From positions 1 to 30,957 of IMG/VR virus record IMGVR_UViG_3300021961_000392: a DNA stretch of 30,957 bases; one strand, given 5' to 3'. This DNA comes from a virus. The position numbers and the translations under genes were made by a program. Within the stretch, counting starts at the first letter, position 1; the number at the start of each line of letters is the position of its first letter. The notes under the pieces were generated by a model. That model searched no databases, was not told the DNA's origin, and worked only from the letters and a program-made list of their open reading frames with translations. This document shows positions 13,825-22,493 of this stretch, one piece after another.

Positions 13825-13853
13825 TTGACCAATCAATTAAAAGTCTCTAGACT
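13825..13853 (+). promoter_or_regulatory. Rightward promoter giving a leaderless regulator mRNA
   Basis: TTGACC (13825-13830), a spacer of 17 bases, then TAGACT (13848-13853). Transcription would begin near 13859-13861, only three to five bases before the ATG at 13864. A second site of the same TTGACC-17-TAG design lies at 20229-20257. Confidence 0.6.
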
Positions 13854-13863
13854 CCCCCACACT

Positions 13864-14094
13864 ATGAACACACAAACCATGCAAACCATTGAAAACATTA
13901 AGGAAAAGGCTGAAATCGCTGGCTACACCATCACAGATGTTGCTCGTCATGCTGGCTTTCACCCTGCCCAAGTTAGCCGTTACGCCACAGGTAAAACCAT
14001 ACCACTTGTCACCACTATCAGGCGGCTAGATGAATCGGTAGATTCCCTGATTCAGGCTCGTTTTAAGGCTCTACAGGGGCTGTTAAATGACTAG
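13864..14094 (+). CDS. Small helix-turn-helix regulator (Cro/XRE-like)
   Basis: 76 aa. Residues about 9-55 form a lambda-repressor-type HTH: helix KEKAEIAGYTITDVARHAG with the turn and recognition helix FHPAQVSRYATGKT, then IPLVTTIRRLDESVD. There is no C-terminal cleavage domain, so it resembles Cro or a mini-repressor. The ATG at 13864 has no SD and lies right at the predicted transcription start, so translation is probably leaderless, as for lambda cI from PRM. The stop overlaps the resolvase start by eight bases. It is the natural partner of the dyad upstream. Confidence 0.8.
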   Translation: MNTQTMQTIENIKEKAEIAGYTITDVARHAGFHPAQVSRYATGKTIPLVTTIRRLDESVDSLIQARFKALQGLLND

Positions 14095-14560
14095 GCGCAC
14101 CATTGGTATTGATTGCGGTCTGAATGGGGCTATAGCCCTTGTAGTCGATGGTGAACTGGTCAGGGTGGTGGATATGCCCACGGTCACCCTTGAGAGGAAC
14201 GGCAAGACCAAGCGTCAGGTGTCAGTGCCTGAACTGGTGGACATCATCAAGGAACTTGACCCGACAGAGGCATACGCTGAAAAAGTGTTTGCAATGGCAG
14301 GGCAAGGGGTTACCAGTGTATTTTCTCTAGGGCGCAGTCTTGGGGTGGTAGAAGGTGTACTCACAGCCCTACGCATCAAGACCACCTTGATGACCCCACA
14401 GACATGGATTAAAGCTATGGGCGTGGTAGGTGGCAAGGATGGGTCAAGAGCAAGGGCAATGGAGTTGTTCCCTGACCATTTGAGCCTGTTCAAGAGGGTC
14501 AAGGATGATGGGCGTAGTGATGCCAGTTTGATTGCACTTTGGGGGTATCGCAATGGATGA
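14087..14560 (+). CDS. RuvC-like Holliday junction resolvase
   Basis: 157 aa with the RNase H-fold nuclease pattern. IGIDCGLNGAIALV carries the first Asp (residue 9), AYAEKVF carries Glu65, and KDDGRSDASLIALWG near the C-terminus holds the last acidic residues (Asp141, Asp145). It would cut branched DNA from replication and recombination before packaging. AGGGG precedes the ATG. Placed with a nuclease and an SSB-like protein, it forms a recombination module. Length is close to bacterial RuvC (about 170 aa). Confidence 0.85.
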   Translation: MTRRTIGIDCGLNGAIALVVDGELVRVVDMPTVTLERNGKTKRQVSVPELVDIIKELDPTEAYAEKVFAMAGQGVTSVFSLGRSLGVVEGVLTALRIKTTLMTPQTWIKAMGVVGGKDGSRARAMELFPDHLSLFKRVKDDGRSDASLIALWGYRNG

Positions 14561-14777
14561 CAAAGAACGGCAAACCCTACGAGAGCACATCGTCTGGTTG
14601 GGTTCACAGCTTGAACAGGAAAGACGGCAAAACCAACACACCGTAGTTTTCTTAAAGAGGGTGCTTGACCCTGAAGACCTCGGTCATGCGGTGTCGCATG
14701 AGGTGAGAAAACTCGCCTACCAATTACTTATTGAACATCACCACATTGAAAGAGACTCATGGCAATCAAACAACTGA
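14553..14777 (+). CDS. Small charged helical protein in recombination module
   Basis: 74 aa from ATG 14553, which overlaps the resolvase end by eight bases and has GGGGG upstream. An upstream TTG at 14532 is unlikely. It is helical and charged (MDDKERQTLREHIVWLGSQ, then FLKRVLDPEDLGH) with a His-rich end (EHHHIERDSW). It overlaps the nuclease gene by 19 bases. No family recognised. Confidence 0.65.
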   Translation: MDDKERQTLREHIVWLGSQLEQERRQNQHTVVFLKRVLDPEDLGHAVSHEVRKLAYQLLIEHHHIERDSWQSNN

Positions 14778-15850
14778 ACATCAGAGCATCAAGTATTTCA
14801 CGCACGATTGCTTGCCCTGCAAGCGTGAGGTTGTCAGCGCAAGTTCCCTATCAGGAGAGTGGTGAGGCGGCAAAGATTGGCACTGCCATTCATGCCTTGG
14901 CAGAACACTGCTACAAGCGTGACCTTGACCCTATGTTTTTCGCAAACAAGGTTTATGAGGGCATACAGATGACAGAGGAGAACTGCCAGTTTGCACAGCA
15001 ACATATCAAGACTATTTGGGCAATACATGAGGAATTAAGTCACACGGGTGGAGTTGAAGTTGAAAGGTTTCTACCCTACCAAGAAACCCCTGCATACAAA
15101 TGCGGTGGCACTGCTGATGTCATAGGTATCTGCAAAGCACATAGCAAGATCATCATTGCTGACTTGAAAACTGGTAGAGGCTATGTTGATGCTGAATCAG
15201 ATCAACTCAAACTCTACGCACTGGCGGCTATGGAGTCTGAGGGTCTATACCAAGACATTGATACTGTGGAGTTATGGATCATCCAACCCCATCATGGTGA
15301 GGTGAGAAAGCACACCATGACAACGCAAGAGTTGGTTGATTGGGAGCACTACATACTGCAACCAGCGATTGAGAATGCCCTGAACCCTGCATTCCCACCT
15401 GTGCCATCAGACTCTGCTTGCCAGTATTGTGCAGCTAAGACAATCTGCCCTGCACAAGCAAACTTGGTTGAGGTAGTTCACTCAGCACCACCAGTGGAAG
15501 TCTTGACAGAAGAGCAAATCAGCGTCTTGCTGACAAAGTTTGACATGGTTGAGGACTACATCAAGGCGGTGAGAGATCATGCCCTTAAACGCATGGAAAA
15601 GGGTGCTGTGATTCAAGGTTGGCAGCTTGCACCTAAGAGAGCAATCAGGTCATGGACTTCAGAAGAGAAAGCGATTGAGCAACTGGTTTTCCTTGGGCTA
15701 CGAATCCATGAGATAACGAAAACCGAACTCTTGACTCCTGCACAGGTCGAGAAACTGCTGCCCAAAGGCTTAAAGGAATCTATTGAACCGCTTACTTCTC
15801 GCATATCGTCAGGGCTGACGCTTGCCAGAGACAAGAGTATTGGTCAATAA
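14759..15850 (+). CDS. DUF2800 family PD-(D/E)XK nuclease (Cas4/RecB-like)
   Basis: 363 aa. GTAIHALAEH (41-50), GGTADV with Asp120, IADLKTG with Asp135 and Lys137, and QLKLYA (149-154) give the RecB-type nuclease core in order. Cys19 together with CQYCAAKTIC (Cys221, 224, 230) can hold a 4Fe-4S cluster, as in Cas4 and AddB. It probably works as the exonuclease of a phage recombination pair with the SSB-like protein that follows. The C-terminal third is an extra helical part (EEKAIEQLVFLGLRIHEI). Confidence 0.88.
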   Translation: MAIKQLNIRASSISRTIACPASVRLSAQVPYQESGEAAKIGTAIHALAEHCYKRDLDPMFFANKVYEGIQMTEENCQFAQQHIKTIWAIHEELSHTGGVEVERFLPYQETPAYKCGGTADVIGICKAHSKIIIADLKTGRGYVDAESDQLKLYALAAMESEGLYQDIDTVELWIIQPHHGEVRKHTMTTQELVDWEHYILQPAIENALNPAFPPVPSDSACQYCAAKTICPAQANLVEVVHSAPPVEVLTEEQISVLLTKFDMVEDYIKAVRDHALKRMEKGAVIQGWQLAPKRAIRSWTSEEKAIEQLVFLGLRIHEITKTELLTPAQVEKLLPKGLKESIEPLTSRISSGLTLARDKSIGQ

Positions 15851-15923: not shown

Positions 15924-16514
15924 ATGAATCTAAACCTTTCAAACTCTGGTGGCTCTGGTAATTACATCAGATTCAGCCCACAAGCCAACGCATGGACAAA
16001 CCAAGATGGTGAGTTCACCTTTGAAAAGTCGGTCTTTGACCATGAAAACTTGCAAACTGGTTGGATGCTGATTGCCGCTGGCATCTTTGAGTTCATGCCT
16101 GACAATGGTCTTGGGCAAAAGGGCGCACAACCAAGTGCCGAGTTTAAGCGTGGCTTCAAAGCAATTTTCTATAACAAGACGATGGGCGTGGCGGAGTACA
16201 GTGCCAATGGCGCAGGGGCTAACATGGGCTTAGAAGCCCTGTGGAAGCAAGTGCAAGCACAGGCATCTGCTAACGCTGGCAAGTTGCCTGTGGTGGAGTA
16301 CAAGGGTTCTCGCCCTGAGAAGGTGGGCAAGGGAACAACCAGAGTGCCAATCTTTGAAGTGGTGAGTTGGGTGGCAAGACCTCAAGCAATGCAAGAAGAT
16401 GGCATGGGTGGGGCAGTGGAGTCAGCGTCACCTTTTGATGCGCCAAAGCCTGTAGCTAAACCAGCACCCTCTAAGCCAGCACCAACCATGAGTGATGATG
16501 AGATGTTCAGCTAA
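15924..16514 (+). CDS. Single-stranded DNA-binding protein-like, DUF2815 style partner
   Basis: 196 aa. The body is beta-rich with aromatic residues (NYIRFSPQANAWTNQDGEF, GWMLIAAGIFEFMPDNG), fitting an OB fold. A Pro/Ala-rich linker (KPVAKPAPSKPAPT) leads to an acidic tip MSDDEMFS, like the protein-interaction tail of SSBs. It follows a DUF2800 nuclease, where an ssDNA-binding protein is expected. AAGGAAAA precedes the start at good distance. A strong terminator follows, so it ends a transcription unit. Confidence 0.75.
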   Translation: MNLNLSNSGGSGNYIRFSPQANAWTNQDGEFTFEKSVFDHENLQTGWMLIAAGIFEFMPDNGLGQKGAQPSAEFKRGFKAIFYNKTMGVAEYSANGAGANMGLEALWKQVQAQASANAGKLPVVEYKGSRPEKVGKGTTRVPIFEVVSWVARPQAMQEDGMGGAVESASPFDAPKPVAKPAPSKPAPTMSDDEMFS

Positions 16515-16584: not shown

Positions 16585-18621
16585 ATGTCAGCACAACAAA
16601 TAGCCACTACCTTGGGCAATGCCAAGAAGGTAGGCAATGGTTACCTAGCAAGTTGTCCAGTACCTCACCACGGTCAGGGCAATGGCGACAAGAACCCAAG
16701 TCTTTCAGTGACAGATGGTGACGATGGCAATGTACTTTTTAAGTGCCACGGTGGGTGCGATCAGCAAGAGGTCTTCAACACCATCAAGGATATGGGACTT
16801 CTCCCACAGCTACCAGACAGACCAGAATACCTCTCAAATGTTAGACCTATCATGCCAGCAATACCAGTTTTAGAGCATGAATGGTTCTACACAGATGAAA
16901 ACGAGATGCCCTTGTTCGTGAAGCAAAGGTACAAGACCTTTGATGCCAAGGGAAAGACCTATAAGACGCTCAGAATCTTGCCTGATGGCAGTCGGGTTGG
17001 GAAGCTAGGAGATTGCAGAATTGTCCCCTACCGACTCCCCGAGCTGCTTCAGGCGGTTACCAATGGGAAGGTGGTCTACATAGCCGAGGGTGAAAAGGCG
17101 GTAGATGCCTTGTGCAGCTTGGGGGTCACGGCTACCACCTCACACGCTGGCGCAGGAGGTTGGAATCAAGACTTGAACCAATACTTTGATGGCGCAAATG
17201 TCGTTGTTGTGCCTGATAACGATGTCGCTGGTTGGGCTTATGCCGACAAGATTGTCGAATCCTTACTGCCTGTGGTCAAAACCATCAGGGTTTTGGATTT
17301 GGGGTTGGACAAGCCAAAGGAAGACGCTTACGAGTTTGTTCACCAATATGGCGGTACAAAGGAAACACTAGCTGCCAAAGCCAAGGGCGCAAAGGTTTTG
17401 GGGCATGAGGATGTCATCTTGATACCCAAAAGACTGAGAGAGACACCACCACCTGACCCTTTCCTCTCCCACGCCAACGAGCCAAAGCTAGAGCAATCAA
17501 GCACCAGAAAGAAGTTATTGGTCGAGTCTTGGGACTCCATTAAGGATGAACCAGTGGAATGGCTGGTGGAGTCGATAGTCCCAAAGAAAGGATTTGTAGC
17601 CCTGTACGCACCCCCTGCCTCGTACAAGTCATTCATCTCGCTTGACCTAGCTGAAGCCATAGCCACAGGTCGGGATTGGATGGGCTACAAAATACCCAAG
17701 AAAGGGGCTGTGCTGTACATCTGCGGTGAAGGGCATGGCGGTATGGGTGCAAGGGTGAAGGCTTGCAAGATACAGAATAAGAGTCCTGATGGGGTGAATC
17801 TGTACATCATCAGGGCGCAATTGAACCTCAGATCGTCACCAGAAGACTTTGCGGAGTTGTTGAATGCCATCAACGAGTTGATTGCTGAGATAGATGAACC
17901 CTTGGAACTCATCATCTTGGACACCCTGATGCGGATGTCTGGCGGTGGCTTTAACGAGAACTCATCCGAGGACATGGGTGGGTTCATCACCCAAGCAGGG
18001 AAGCTTCAGGAAATCTTTGAGTGTGCCTTGATGGTGATTCACCATAGCGGTAAGGATGTCACCAAGGGTCTTAGAGGTCATAGTTCGCTGCTTGGGGCAG
18101 TGGATACAGAACTTGAGATTCAAAGGCAAGATTCTGTCATCAATTCAGGGGATTCAGCCGTAATAGGTAACGCAATCCTGACAGTCAGCAAACAAAAAGA
18201 TGGGGCTGACTCCATCCAGATCGGCATTGAGATCGTACTGGTGGAGATTGGAACATCAGATTTAGGCTTTGAAATCAACACTTCACTGGCGATTAGGCAT
18301 AACCAAGAGATTGCTGGGAGTAACTCTAAAGGTAGTAAAAACAATGCGGGTAGCGGTAAAAATCAACGGTTGGAGATGGATTCGTTGATGAAGGTTATTA
18401 AATCTAAAGGCTCATACCGTGAAGTGGATGGTACTAGTCGGTATGGCGTGAGTTTGGAGGATTGGAGGGCTGAATTTTGGTCTATGAAGGGCTGCACCGA
18501 GGAGGATAAAACCACTTTCAAGGTAGCTTGGCTTCGTGCTAGAGAGAGGTTGGTAGCCATAAATAAGGTCGTGATTGGGTCTGGTTGGGTGTGGTTGAAG
18601 TCGAGTTCGGAAAACTTCTGA
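16585..18621 (+). CDS. Primase-helicase (zinc ribbon, TOPRIM, RepA-like ATPase)
   Basis: 678 aa. N-terminal zinc ribbon: Cys24, His28/29, Cys54, Cys58. TOPRIM domain: VVYIAEGEKAVDAL (Glu168/170) and VVVPDNDVAGW (Asp211/213). ATPase: Walker A APPASYKS (342-349), Walker B LIILD (442-446) and a VIHHSGKD sensor (484-491). The C-terminal region (SRYGVSLEDWRAEFW) looks like a winged helix that could bind origin DNA. It combines primer synthesis and unwinding in one protein, as in T7 gp4 and P4 alpha-like systems. The start at 16585 has only weak GGAT upstream. A repeat cluster follows directly. Confidence 0.88.
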   Translation: MSAQQIATTLGNAKKVGNGYLASCPVPHHGQGNGDKNPSLSVTDGDDGNVLFKCHGGCDQQEVFNTIKDMGLLPQLPDRPEYLSNVRPIMPAIPVLEHEWFYTDENEMPLFVKQRYKTFDAKGKTYKTLRILPDGSRVGKLGDCRIVPYRLPELLQAVTNGKVVYIAEGEKAVDALCSLGVTATTSHAGAGGWNQDLNQYFDGANVVVVPDNDVAGWAYADKIVESLLPVVKTIRVLDLGLDKPKEDAYEFVHQYGGTKETLAAKAKGAKVLGHEDVILIPKRLRETPPPDPFLSHANEPKLEQSSTRKKLLVESWDSIKDEPVEWLVESIVPKKGFVALYAPPASYKSFISLDLAEAIATGRDWMGYKIPKKGAVLYICGEGHGGMGARVKACKIQNKSPDGVNLYIIRAQLNLRSSPEDFAELLNAINELIAEIDEPLELIILDTLMRMSGGGFNENSSEDMGGFITQAGKLQEIFECALMVIHHSGKDVTKGLRGHSSLLGAVDTELEIQRQDSVINSGDSAVIGNAILTVSKQKDGADSIQIGIEIVLVEIGTSDLGFEINTSLAIRHNQEIAGSNSKGSKNNAGSGKNQRLEMDSLMKVIKSKGSYREVDGTSRYGVSLEDWRAEFWSMKGCTEEDKTTFKVAWLRARERLVAINKVVIGSGWVWLKSSSENF

Positions 18622-18774: not shown

Positions 18775-19401
18775 ATGAGTCGATCTAGGTCAAGAAGAGA
18801 AGTACCCCAAGTTGAGGTCAAGAGGTATGAGCCAACTATTTGGGATATTGAGGCAAGTGCTTGCCTCACCGAATTGGAGGTGAGAAAGGAGCAACATCAT
18901 CAGAAATGGGGTTGCGAGAGATTGATTACTTTAGTTGACACGGTATTTAGGGAGAGGTTTTGGGTGCAGATGGCTAGGGTTTGGGATGCCACTGATGCCA
19001 AGGATATTGAGAGACTGAGGAAGGCGGTCTACGGCATGGTCAAAGGGTACGATGCTTTGGAAGCATGGGCAGTGGACAATGGAGTTCCACAAAACCCACC
19101 CATCAGGTTTTTGGAGTGGAAAACTTTGGATGGGAAAATCATGGCAGTTGTCCAGACCGTCAACGAAAGCCTAGACTTGCAGCGAGAACGCAAAGACCTG
19201 AATTGGATTTGGACACTGGAAGAGTTTGAGATTGTCTTGGCTGACCCATTGGTGCAAGAGATCATGGCGATTAAAGCACTCGACCCCACCGCACAAGTCA
19301 AGATGTTCAAGAAAGGTGAATCAGGGTTTGAAGACATGGAAGACGACCTCCATGTTTTGGAGGGTGAGCCAGCACCTAAACTTTTCAATGTGCCGAGGTG
19401 A
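18775..19401 (+). CDS. Phage protein of unknown function behind the repeat array
   Basis: 208 aa. A basic N-terminus (MSRSRSRREVPQVEVKR) is followed by a helical body (RLITLVDTVFRERFWVQMAR, then RLRKAVYGMVKGYDALEAWA) and an acidic C-terminal part (GFEDMEDDLHVLEGEPAPK). No cysteine cluster, membrane part or catalytic motif. Its promoter lies in the GTAACAAA cluster, so it may be autoregulated or under replication control. The basic start could contact DNA. Not recognised as any family. Confidence 0.7.
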   Translation: MSRSRSRREVPQVEVKRYEPTIWDIEASACLTELEVRKEQHHQKWGCERLITLVDTVFRERFWVQMARVWDATDAKDIERLRKAVYGMVKGYDALEAWAVDNGVPQNPPIRFLEWKTLDGKIMAVVQTVNESLDLQRERKDLNWIWTLEEFEIVLADPLVQEIMAIKALDPTAQVKMFKKGESGFEDMEDDLHVLEGEPAPKLFNVPR

Positions 19402-19404
19402 TGG

Positions 19405-19617
19405 GTGGGTAAAGGCAGACCATCCAGCTTGAAGGTCAAATACTTTCAGCGGCAGCTTGGTGAGGCTGAGAAGACAATTCTTGCCTGTGCTGGCAATGGC
19501 GATATATCGTTGGGGTTCAAGATTGTCATTGAATCGTTTGCGGTTCTATGGGAAGCTGGATACAGACCACAGGGCGATTTGCGTGATTTCTTGGGTTTGG
19601 ATACAGAACGGCAATAA
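19405..19617 (+). CDS. Small basic protein, possible DNA-binding
   Basis: 70 aa from GTG 19405, behind GAGGTGATG. The ATG at 19401 stops after two codons. It begins MGKGRPSSLKVKYFQRQLG, and the GRP with Lys/Arg resembles N-termini of small terminase or other DNA-binding phage proteins. Helical middle (AEKTILACAGNGDISLGFK) and acidic end (DLRDFLGLDTERQ). It is the last gene before the non-coding region; a terminator follows. Confidence 0.6.
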   Translation: MGKGRPSSLKVKYFQRQLGEAEKTILACAGNGDISLGFKIVIESFAVLWEAGYRPQGDLRDFLGLDTERQ

Positions 19618-19651
19618 AAACCTGTTCTAGCCCTGTTTTAAGGCTTTCTAG

Positions 19652-19688
19652 AGGCATTGGCAGTCATAGATTCTGCCTAGCCTTTTTT
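19652..19688 (+). terminator. Terminator-like hairpin after the replication genes
   Basis: Nested arms AGGC/GCCT and GGCAG/CTGCC, separated by small internal bulges and a nine-base loop, followed by a run of six T at 19683-19688. It lies 34 bases after the last gene of the rightward replication unit. Confidence 0.6.
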
Positions 19689-19700
19689 AATATTTGGAAA

Positions 19701-19721
19701 TGAGAATCACTATCATTCTCA
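19701..19721. promoter_or_regulatory. Fur-box-like palindrome
   Basis: TGAGAAT CACTATC ATTCTCA, two perfect seven-base arms. TGAGAATCACTATCA matches the Fur 7-1-7 pattern TGATAATNATTATCA closely, and a second overlapping half follows. No gene is placed for simple control by it. It is not followed by T, so a terminator is unlikely. Confidence 0.5.
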
Positions 19722-19796
19722 AGTACCCCAATAATGCACCCTCCGCCTCTCTCCCTCTCCGCCTCCCTGCCAGTTGCCGATTTGCCAAATTCCAAG

Positions 19797-19839
19797 TTAT
19801 CCACAGGTTATCCACAGATTTGGATCGAAGTTATCCACA
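19797..19839 (+). promoter_or_regulatory. Three perfect DnaA boxes
   Basis: TTATCCACA occurs at 19797-19805, 19808-19816 and 19831-19839, all on the same strand. The first two start 11 bases apart, one helical turn, as in oriC arrays. TTATCCACA is the strongest binding sequence of DnaA. Confidence 0.85.
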
Positions 19840-19876
19840 ATTGCCCCAACTGGTTTCAATTTGCGTCTCAATTGCT

Positions 19877-19998
19877 GTGCGTTTGTAATGCTTTCTTTGA
19901 TTTTGAGTTAACATAATGGACATCGTGTTAAATGGATTTTGTAAGTTATCTGTAAGTTGCAGAGAATGTCTAATGAAATCAACAACTTACAAACGCAC
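19877..19998. repeat. 12-bp perfect inverted repeat around an AT-rich segment
   Basis: GTGCGTTTGTAA at 19877-19888 and its exact complement TTACAAACGCAC at 19987-19998. The enclosed 98 bases are AT-rich and include two TGTAAGTT copies and GTTAAC. Position between DnaA boxes three and four suggests an unwinding element or a second initiator site. Confidence 0.65.
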
Positions 19999-20012
19999 AT
20001 CTGCAAACTGAG

Positions 20013-20021
20013 TTATCCACA
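20013..20021 (+). promoter_or_regulatory. Fourth perfect DnaA box
   Basis: TTATCCACA, same orientation as the three boxes 174 or more bases upstream, on the other side of the AT-rich inverted repeat. Confidence 0.8.
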
Positions 20022-20082
20022 GAAAATAGTTCTCAATTTTTCGATGGGGGGGAGGGGGTGGTCTTGGTCTGTGATAATTGTG

Positions 20083-20134
20083 GGGGCATCCGCCCCTCTG
20101 AAAAAGCGAAAATAGAAAAAGGGGCAACTGCCCC
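20083..20134 (-). terminator. Twin GGGGC-loop-GCCCC hairpins, second with minus-strand T-run
   Basis: Hairpins at 20083-20096 (loop ATCC) and 20121-20134 (loop AACT) have identical five-base stems. Read leftward, the second is followed by TTTTT (20116-20120), as in an intrinsic terminator. No leftward gene is seen to its right, so it may stop antisense transcription into the origin candidate or end a small RNA. Confidence 0.4.
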
Positions 20135-20228
20135 GCTTCCCCGCTATGAAAAAAAACAGGTGTTGGCGGTTTCCATAAGGCAGGATTCGGGCGCAATTCA
20201 ACAAAAATCTCCCACGATGCCGACACGC

Positions 20229-20257
20229 TTGACCGCCAACGCTGATAAATCTAGCAT
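20229..20257 (+). promoter_or_regulatory. Promoter for packaging genes
   Basis: TTGACC (20229-20234), 17 bases, TAGCAT (20252-20257), the same design as the promoter at 13825. An extended -10 candidate TGCTATAGT (20272-20280) lies just downstream and might serve instead. Both precede the GTG start at 20316. Confidence 0.5.
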
Positions 20258-20315
20258 ATCGTCACAGTATTTGCTATAGTCCCCACCTATCACGCCCACC
20301 AAGACAAGGACAATC

Positions 20316-20747
20316 GTGAAGATCGAACAGATGGACAGCATCCAAGATGAAGCCCCACAGCCTCAGCCAGAGAAGAAGAAGGCTGGCAGACCCAAGGGTA
20401 TCTATGGCTTAAAGCGTCAGATACAGGAGTACGCAAGGAATCCTGAGTTAGCGTTGCCCAAGACTGACAACCAGAGAATCAAGGACTTGAAGGATATGCT
20501 TATCAAGTCCAGTGGTAAGGATGTGGTTGAGAAGATGATCTCCATTGCGTTGAATGACAACCACCCCGCACAGATGGCGGCTATCAAGATGTGCGTTGAC
20601 CGCACACTGCCTGTCTCTATGTTTGAGAAGGATAAGAGCCAGAGGAGTGCGGTCACCATCAATATCACTGGCATAGGCGCACCCATAGCAAGCACCACAA
20701 CAATTGAGCCTGATGACATACAGGATGTAGAGGTTAAAGATGACTGA
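20316..20747 (+). CDS. Terminase small subunit candidate
   Basis: 143 aa from GTG 20316, with AAGGA five bases upstream. AGRPKGIYGLKRQIQEYA near residues 23-40 is a DNA-binding-like start. The middle (VVEKMISIALNDNHPAQM, then AAIKMCVDRTLPVSMFEK) is a pattern I have seen in proteins just upstream of terL in podovirus-like phages. It would recognise the phage DNA for packaging. No clear HTH can be proven. The 70-aa basic protein at 19405 is an alternative. Overlaps the next gene by eight bases. Confidence 0.55.
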   Translation: MKIEQMDSIQDEAPQPQPEKKKAGRPKGIYGLKRQIQEYARNPELALPKTDNQRIKDLKDMLIKSSGKDVVEKMISIALNDNHPAQMAAIKMCVDRTLPVSMFEKDKSQRSAVTINITGIGAPIASTTTIEPDDIQDVEVKDD

Positions 20748-21234
20748 TTGGCTAAATGAGTACCAAAAATTCTCTGCGACTCCTTGGAGTCCTACTACAC
20801 TAAAACCAGAAGAAGAACAGCAGTTTCGCAGTTGGTTACAAGGAACTCAACTGTTTAACTCTATCAAATCAGACATAGCCGCTGAACAAAACCTGCCTGT
20901 AGAAAAATTGGACAACCAACGAGTTACAGAGATGATTCTTCAATCTCCTGACTATGACTACAGGGGAGCATGGAAAGCAGGGATAAAAGAAACCATCAGC
21001 CCTTATGACGGCAAACCTCACTTCCCATCGTCTACAAAAACAGGAAAAATGCTGAAAGACCCAAGTCATCCCACGGCATGGAAAGAATTTTTTATGCGTC
21101 AGTATGGTGCAGACCCTGATGCAATGGGACTTGACACTGTAGAAAAAGCAAAAAACTGGAGTCTTTCAACACGAAAGGTAGAAACACCTTTCTATAAAGA
21201 CCCATTTTCTGCACCTGACTACAGCATCGAATAA
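20740..21234 (+). CDS. Conserved packaging-module protein with YDYRGAW motif
   Basis: 164 aa. It has YDYRGAW at residues 72-78, then HFP (94-96) and SHPTAWKE (109-116). This order (YRGAW, then HFP, then HPT) recurs in many phage proteins near terminase and portal genes. Function unknown; a packaging or portal-associated role is suggested only by location. The DNA is more AT-rich than terL. The start overlaps the previous gene by eight bases, and the stop overlaps the terL ATG by one. Confidence 0.7.
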   Translation: MTDWLNEYQKFSATPWSPTTLKPEEEQQFRSWLQGTQLFNSIKSDIAAEQNLPVEKLDNQRVTEMILQSPDYDYRGAWKAGIKETISPYDGKPHFPSSTKTGKMLKDPSHPTAWKEFFMRQYGADPDAMGLDTVEKAKNWSLSTRKVETPFYKDPFSAPDYSIE

Positions 21235-22493
21235 TGGCTGATCTGAACTTTGCGCTATTGCCGTGGCAACAGGAGGTGTATGCCGACAAGACGAGGTTCA
21301 AGGTGGTGGTGGCAGGGCGAAGGTGCGGCAAGTCTAGGTTAGCGGTGACTACCTTATTGATTGAGGGTTTGAGCTGTCCTGCTGGTAGTGCGGTGCTGTA
21401 TGTTGCCCCGACTCAGGGACAGGCGAGGCAGATCATTTGGGATGTGCTCTTGGACATTGGGCGAGAGATCATCACCAGTAGCCATGTGAACAACATGGAA
21501 GTGACCTTGATTAATGGTGCAAAGATATATGTTCGGGGTTCAGACAGACCCGACACCTTGCGAGGTGTTTCCTTGACTTACGCAGTATTGGATGAGGTAG
21601 CGGATATTAAGCCTGAGACTTGGGAACAGGTGATTCGTGCGTCATTGTCTGACAAGCGTGGAAGGGCGATGTTTATTGGTACGCCAAAGGGTAGGAACTG
21701 GTTCTTTGACCTGTACAACTTGGGTCAGGAGGGTGAGGATGCTGATTGGAAGTCGTGGCACTTCACCACCAAGGACAACCCTTTGATTGATGTCTCTGAG
21801 ATTGAGAGTGCAAAGAAGACCCTATCAAGTTTCGCCTTTAAGCAAGAGTATATGGCATCGTTTGACAATGCTGGCTCAGATGTCTTCAAGGAGGAGTGGA
21901 TTCGGTATGGGGAGATGCCTGAGCATGGGAGTTACTTCATAGCGGTGGACTTGGCTGGGTTTGAGGAGGTGGCAAAGCAAGCCGCCAACTCCAAGAAGAG
22001 GCTAGACCAGAGTGCCATTGCGGTAGTGAAGGTAACCGAGGATGGCAAGTGGTGGGTGGAGAAGATTGAGTATGGGCGGTGGGACATTAGAACGACTGCT
22101 GCCAATATACTGTTGGCGATCAGGGACTATAAGCCCTTGAGTATTGGGATTGAGCGTGGTGCGTTGAAAAATGCGGTACTTCCCTATTTGTCCGATTTAA
22201 TGCGAAAATCGAACATATATGCCCATATTGTGGATTTGACGCATGGGAACAAGAAGAAGAGTGACCGCATCATTTGGGCATTGCAAGGAAGGTTTGAGCA
22301 TGGCAGAATCGTGCTTAACAAGGAAGAGGATTGGACAGAGTTCCTAGATCAGTTGTTGATGTACCCATCCCAAGGGGTGCATGACGATCTTCCTGATGCG
22401 TTAAGTTATATAGATCAGTTATCTATAACCTCATACTTTGAGGCAGATGATGAAGACGAGTGGCAACCAGTTGACATCATTAGCGGTGTATGA
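21234..22493 (+). CDS. terL: Terminase large subunit
   Basis: 419 aa, the packaging motor. Walker A GRRCGKSR (28-35), Walker B YAVLDE (116-121) with catalytic Glu121, coupling motif GTP (149-151). The RNase H-fold nuclease follows: IAVDLAG with Asp239, IGIERG with Glu307, and HDDLPDALSY with Asp384/Asp388. All key residues are present, so both ATPase and headful or site cleavage activity should be intact. It sits directly before the portal gene, as in most tailed phages. Confidence 0.95.
   Translation: MADLNFALLPWQQEVYADKTRFKVVVAGRRCGKSRLAVTTLLIEGLSCPAGSAVLYVAPTQGQARQIIWDVLLDIGREIITSSHVNNMEVTLINGAKIYVRGSDRPDTLRGVSLTYAVLDEVADIKPETWEQVIRASLSDKRGRAMFIGTPKGRNWFFDLYNLGQEGEDADWKSWHFTTKDNPLIDVSEIESAKKTLSSFAFKQEYMASFDNAGSDVFKEEWIRYGEMPEHGSYFIAVDLAGFEEVAKQAANSKKRLDQSAIAVVKVTEDGKWWVEKIEYGRWDIRTTAANILLAIRDYKPLSIGIERGALKNAVLPYLSDLMRKSNIYAHIVDLTHGNKKKSDRIIWALQGRFEHGRIVLNKEEDWTEFLDQLLMYPSQGVHDDLPDALSYIDQLSITSYFEADDEDEWQPVDIISGV

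Follow-up and report, generated by a model that had tools for sequence, protein, structure and literature searches.

The 698-bp non-coding gap between the replication and packaging genes of the virus studied here is best read as an oriC-like origin of a tailed phage, driven by host DnaA, within which is nested a XerCD site of the dif/psi type that would resolve multimers. We put the probability of this reading, taken as a whole, at roughly 0.6. The host-DnaA origin predicted here is well supported, and for the Xer site multimer resolution is favoured over integration at host dif. The evidence consists of the sequences themselves, a fixed geometry, conservation among relatives, a link to the primase-helicase gene and a circular relative.

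The window, meaning the whole stretch of DNA analysed, is a 30,957-base IMG/VR record of a freshwater bacterial virus that covers only part of the genome, with genes for tail, lysis, recombination, replication, terminase, portal and fibre functions. The first-pass annotation had placed the region of interest between replication and packaging genes, and the ORF map agrees: the gap (19618-20315, flanked by the ORFs at 19405-19617 and 20316-20747) separates the primase-helicase cluster from the packaging genes (small terminase). The layout around it is as follows:

13825-14094, Cro/CI-type HTH protein (domain match)
14087..14560, + strand, Holliday junction resolvase (phrog_1770, 1.7e-28)
14759..15850, + strand, DUF2800 / PD-(D/E)XK exonuclease (family matches)
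15924..16514, + strand, protein with an SSB-like acidic tail (DDEMF), matching no family
16585..18621, + strand, primase-helicase (PF13481, 4.8e-36; PHROG DNA primase/helicase matches)
18775..19401, + strand, ORF208, which travels with the replication module and has an acidic C-terminus (no fold match)
19405..19617, + strand, ORF70, no assigned function, the last gene ahead of the origin
19618..20315, no strand, intergenic region with the proposed composite origin (from the ORF map; the DnaA boxes of 53 relatives are concentrated here)
20316..20747, + strand, probable small terminase subunit, assigned by position
21234..22493, + strand, large terminase subunit (family matches)

Within and beside the proposed origin we recognise the elements below, of which the dif-like XerCD site, the IHF consensus, the TGTAAG repeat and the G7AG5 tract, all conserved, had been missed in the first-pass annotation:

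19797..19805, + strand, DnaA box 1 (TTATCCACA), mean column conservation 0.85 (53 relatives)
19808..19816, + strand, DnaA box 2 (TTATCCACA), 11 bp from box 1, conservation 1.0 (53 relatives)
19831..19839, + strand, DnaA box 3 (TTATCCACA), 23 bp from box 2, conservation 0.98 (53 relatives)
19892..19991, no strand, candidate DNA unwinding region (nearest-neighbour stability, 100-bp window)
19906..19933, - strand, dif/psi-like XerCD site of 28 bp, ATTTAACACGA-TGTCCA-TTATGTTAACT
19940..19956, + strand, direct repeat TGTAAG-N5-TGTAAG, 11 bp centre to centre, found in slightly degenerate form in 50 of 53 relatives
19977..19989, + strand, IHF consensus WATCAANNNNTTR (AATCAACAACTTA), in 53 of 53 relatives
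20013..20021, + strand, DnaA box 4 (TTATCCACA), with inverted boxes 24 and 53 bp downstream in many relatives
20046..20058, + strand, G7AG5 tract, present as G6AG5 in 53 of 53 relatives

The consensus DnaA box occurs exactly four times in the window, always on the + strand (at 19797, 19808, 19831 and 20013), where 0.44 copies would be expected, and four copies were reached in none of 100 dinucleotide shuffles; a cluster of four perfect boxes within 225 bp is well above chance. The claims that four same-strand boxes fall within 225 bases and that the first two are one helical turn apart are thus both borne out, no other copy being found in the window and the 11 bp between boxes 1 and 2 corresponding to 1.05 turns, followed by spacings of 23 and 182 bp. 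Searching IMG/VR with the primase-helicase and the large terminase as queries led to about 160 fetched loci, from which 53 distinct copies of the intergenic region were compared. Whether relatives keep the boxes in non-coding DNA had been proposed as a check, and they do: the 53 relatives, which are mutually related sequences and have to be counted as such, hold 228 perfect boxes in 39.7 kb of intergenic DNA and just 1 in the 604.7 kb that flank it. Most close relatives retain the spacings of 11 and 23 bp, boxes 2 and 3 being altered in one subgroup.

The earlier argument for a host-DnaA-dependent origin had also leaned on a perfect inverted repeat of 12 bp. A perfect repeat does exist, but it measures 13 nt (19876-19888 and 19987-19999, arms 98 nt apart) and is complete in the window alone (1 of 53), so that it has been dropped as a conserved part and rejected as a functional one. 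What stands of the argument is the boxes themselves, conserved and linked to the replication module, for which a host-DnaA-dependent origin would be the best reading. The GC-skew check proposed for the origin is uninformative here, since skew tracks the strand of the genes in the window as well as in the circular relative G008 (a complete assembly of 33,811 bp), both in the cumulative curves and in third-codon-position skew per gene, and even in G008 no switch is seen at the origin.

Between boxes 3 and 4 the most conserved element is the Xer site, present once in the window and consisting of a XerD arm (19906-19916), a centre (19917-19922) and a XerC arm (19923-19933). On a matrix built from 47 proteobacterial dif sites (PMC2731167, also the source of the Rhodoferax ferrireducens dif), it scores 15.7 bits, against a window mean of -40 (sd 10.5) and 5.9 for the next unrelated site; this is lower than the score of most chromosomal dif sites. 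It has two 11-bp arms, a 6-bp centre and a conserved XerD arm of the TTATGTTAA type. The inner part of its XerC arm reads YACRA as against the canonical CATAA/RCAA, and the arm agrees with that of the Rhodoferax dif at 8 of 11 positions at best and with that of psi at 4-5 of 11. Among individual dif sites, the one in Rhodoferax ferrireducens comes closest (22 of 28 positions for the window, 23 of 28 for a second lineage, whose XerD arm is identical to it at all 11 positions), while psi of pSC101 (NC_002056, 6782) agrees with the phage site at 9 of the 11 positions in the XerD arm and, in part of the lineage, at 5 of the 6 in the centre. The arms are conserved and the centre varies between the two lineages, the XerD arm being nearly invariant though the primase-helicases of these lineages share just 34-52% identity with that of the window.

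When IMG/VR was scanned for the Xer arms with any 6-bp centre, 73 new loci were obtained. In 72 of them perfect DnaA boxes lie alongside at constant distances, and of these, most that are of sufficient length code for a recognisable primase-helicase relative (34-87% identity). Three sister-type loci without DnaA boxes (L151, L388 and L389) carry ACTTGATGCRATAAATATTATGTTAAGT beside an iteron-like array, in a form that in L388 and L389 matches the Rhodoferax dif at 25 of 28 positions, and this independent occurrence makes chance resemblance unlikely. Since only some sister phages have the site, it does not appear essential to the wider family. Similarity to dif, the one line of evidence used for this purpose, points to Comamonadaceae-like hosts; in the search for a host, a Rhodoferax-type dif site was present in 0 of 369 sampled genomes.

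The same DnaA origin could be combined with another role for the Xer site, that of an attachment site for integrase-free integration at host dif, which we consider rather unlikely. Integrase-free dif phages do exist among the gokushoviruses (PMC7062461), and no phage integrase was found in 10 records (the window and relatives). In addition to the XerD arm that the second lineage shares with the Rhodoferax dif, the centre has TGT on the XerC side in common with it, which is compatible with a XerC-first exchange as described for VGJphi (PMC5357621). On the XerD side, however, the centre (TGTCCA or CATCCA) mismatches TGTATA, and no hybrid attL/attR junction was found in IMG/VR, where the XerC arm is that of the phage at 65 of 65 XerD-flank sites. 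A profile scan of genome contigs with the primase-helicase (one genome per species) likewise returned no close relative and only distant homologues among the matches listed, and therefore identified neither a prophage nor a host. Multimer resolution is favoured because the centre differs from that of the Rhodoferax dif and because no junctions were found (for genome contigs, among the matches listed); in part of the lineage the centre is closer to that of psi than to the Rhodoferax TGTATA, which favours recombination between phage copies.

It is improbable that the 28-bp dyad is instead the operator of a phage regulator, or part of an unwinding element, and dif-like by convergence. Such a reading would suit an imperfect palindrome with an unusual XerC arm lying within AT-rich DNA, in a phage that encodes a Cro/CI-type HTH protein (13825-14094), but the dyad occurs as a single copy in the window, has a 6-bp spacer between 11-bp arms and keeps its XerD arm across lineages as diverged as those above. 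Its dif score, moreover, far exceeds that of every unrelated window position, and sister phages with different replication genes have a still closer dif match in the same place.

The boxes co-vary with the replication genes, not with the terminase. Among non-redundant terminase relatives whose upstream DNA was covered, boxes are found in 27 of 27 that have this primase-helicase and in 0 of 11 that do not (Fisher p=8e-10, which counts related loci as independent and is a guide only), and terminase relatives that are 82-84% identical but lack the primase-helicase have none. This argues against the boxes being a DnaA-controlled switch of the downstream terminase operon, or a sink that would starve host replication, even though DnaA is known as a transcription factor and the boxes lie directly upstream of the late operon. 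In two loci (L080 and L083) the cassette as a whole is flipped with respect to the genes while keeping its geometry, so that the boxes point the opposite way relative to the genes beside them, and the IHF consensus and low-stability DNA go along with the boxes, all of which leaves such a switch or sink quite improbable.

Most relatives without the primase-helicase have ~14-bp iteron-like repeat arrays that adjoin the G tract ahead of the small terminase gene; in most of the sister loci L141-L162, arrays of the GTTAGTKNGYGCTYACT type lie 0-400 bp to the left of that tract. The three sister phages scanned (L142, L147 and L150) encode primosomal, O-like or DnaD-like proteins, and the proteins scanned from the window's replication region include no recognised O-like or Rep initiator. 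DnaA boxes with the primase-helicase on the one hand and iterons with an O-like initiator on the other look like alternative modules at one locus.

The triple-box geometry without the Xer core was also found in 66 fetched viral loci, some of them distant primase-helicase relatives, so that DnaA arrays are common in phages. As DnaA arrays occur without a Xer site in other viral contigs, the two functions are separable. Long arrays of perfect boxes, up to 7 per 130 bp, were seen in L401, L420, L424, L431, L444, L448 and others, which suggests that origins with DnaA boxes are widespread in phages; L409, L412 and L476 have the same 11/23 array together with a distant primase-helicase (33-36%), many CATCGGGGCAGT units and no Xer site. 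BLAST of the origin region gave zero matches to PLSDB plasmids and only short DnaA-box pairs in INPHARED phages, mostly in microviruses. One contig, IMGVR_UViG_3300028025_001978 (41,153 bp; L085/L012/L072), contains the origin and primase-helicase twice, in copies that differ from each other and lie 33 kb apart; it looks like a junction of two related genomes, either an assembly chimera or a recombined dimer.

Both the IHF consensus and very unstable DNA are located between boxes 3 and 4. The consensus WATCAANNNNTTR has 6 matches across the whole window on both strands, and by nearest-neighbour stability the stretch 19892-19991 is among the least stable 0.4-0.6% of the window (0.44% at 100 bp). 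The TGTAAG direct repeat, which in L409 adjoins a DnaA array without a Xer site, is a possible candidate site for a phage or host protein. The G7AG5 tract, which resembles mitochondrial G tracts of the CSBII type, could form a G-quadruplex or R-loop or be a packaging mark; it is also found upstream of terS in sister phages without DnaA boxes (e.g. L150 and L151). The notion that the conserved block serves mainly for packaging (pac/cos), with the G tract at its core, deserves hardly any weight, for although the block directly precedes the small terminase gene and the tract is common to the terminase relatives examined, with or without boxes, this would account for the G tract at best, the boxes, IHF site and Xer site changing with the replication module or lineage. 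Further upstream, at 19699-19721, lies a Fur-box-like palindrome (AATGAGAATCACTATCATTCTCA) that also occurs in L005, L104 and L119; being present in few relatives only, it was rejected as a conserved part. Similar AATGAGAATNATTCTCATT motifs recur in sister phages.

The primase-helicase has invariant Cys/His residues near its N-terminus, primase-like PHROG matches and a RepA-type AAA_25 domain. ORF208 is conserved beside the DnaA-type origin in both lineages; it was rejected as a known initiator, as a comparison with PDB structures gave no fold match and its good matches in a viral library are almost only uncharacterised phage proteins. It could be an unrecognised phage initiator, with DnaA as a mere helper, or possibly a co-initiator or SSB-like partner. 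At the small-terminase position, G008, which belongs to the second lineage, has a differing protein that matches phrog_1482. Searches for a family-A DNA polymerase gave no match for the window and for 8 of 9 relatives, G008 among them; G013 has one. No match to the ParA-type partition ATPase family (PF13614) was obtained in the 10 records, so that a stable plasmid life is unsupported; as for the marks of a P1-like plasmid prophage, neither PF13614 nor, among the replication-region proteins scanned, a Rep initiator was seen.

How the origin would work can be outlined from these features. Host DnaA would bind the phased boxes on both sides, and IHF would bend the DNA between boxes 3 and 4 and so aid DnaA, whereupon the weak AT-rich stretch between these boxes would melt and the phage's own primase-helicase would load on the opened DNA. 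A host polymerase would then copy the circular genome, a step we infer from the lack of a family-A polymerase in the window and the complete relative. Homologous recombination combined with circular replication would generate multimers, and host XerC and XerD would recombine two nested 28-bp sites to return monomers, in the manner of psi of pSC101. The binding of DnaA and IHF, the melting and loading steps, and XerCD recombination together with its purpose are predictions from sequence.

DnaA-dependent origins are known in plasmids and in P1, and T7-like lytic podovirus models replicate independently of host DnaA. Each part of the present arrangement is known, DnaA origins as well as Xer sites in plasmids, CTX-type phages and gokushoviruses; in the literature searched, mostly non-subscription, we found no report of a Xer site nested in the DnaA origin of a tailed phage. 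We would give even odds to the broader proposal that a widespread freshwater lineage has fused copies of both control points of the host chromosome, the DnaA origin (oriC-like) and the XerCD site (dif-like), into a ~225-bp cassette in a phage with its own primase-helicase, with initiation and multimer resolution (or reversible dif integration) running on host proteins. It is probable that these phages rely on host chromosome machinery to copy and separate their DNA. Two metagenomic phage lineages would, by sequence, rely on DnaA, IHF and XerCD, and within one terminase family the initiator sites seem to be exchanged, as a module, for O-protein/iteron systems, which offers a natural setting in which to compare how phages come to use host initiators or their own. 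From a composite origin of this kind, coupling to host growth is predicted, as is a carrier state or one integrated at dif, and Comamonadaceae-like hosts would be indicated for phages known from metagenomes alone.

Compared with known systems, the terminase-sharing sister phages resemble the lambda type of origin (iterons and O protein), the three scanned encoding O-like or primosomal proteins, whereas the lineage of the window has DnaA boxes instead and, in the replication region scanned, no recognised O protein. As is the case for CTXphi, VGJphi, TLCphi, the gonococcal island and the gokushoviruses, the phage bears a dif-like site and no integrase, but elements that exploit Xer are mostly ssDNA phages or islands, and for the phage here no integrated copy or junction was found (for genome contigs, among the matches listed). 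With the dif of Rhodoferax ferrireducens it has in common the unusual TACGA/CACGA inner XerC arm, but the centres differ (TGTATA in Rhodoferax, TGTCCA in the phage) and the phage copy adjoins DnaA boxes.

Psi of pSC101 and cer of ColE1 are likewise single 11-6-11 sites with a TTATGTTAA XerD arm, the centre of psi (GATCCA) being close to the CATCCA of part of the phage lineage, and as in these sites there is conserved DNA beside the XerC arm, where accessory proteins could bind; the phage XerC arm, TTTAAYACRA, is however unlike GGTGCGCGCAA, and the phage site is embedded in the origin. With oriC, pSC101 oriV and P1 oriR the phage shares helically phased boxes, an IHF consensus, AT-rich unstable DNA and nearby replication genes, but it differs from them in having no recognised plasmid Rep or dnaA gene, a primase-helicase of its own and a Xer site between the boxes. 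Some 1.8 kb separates the DnaA box (5006) from psi (6782) in pSC101, whereas in the phage the two are nested.
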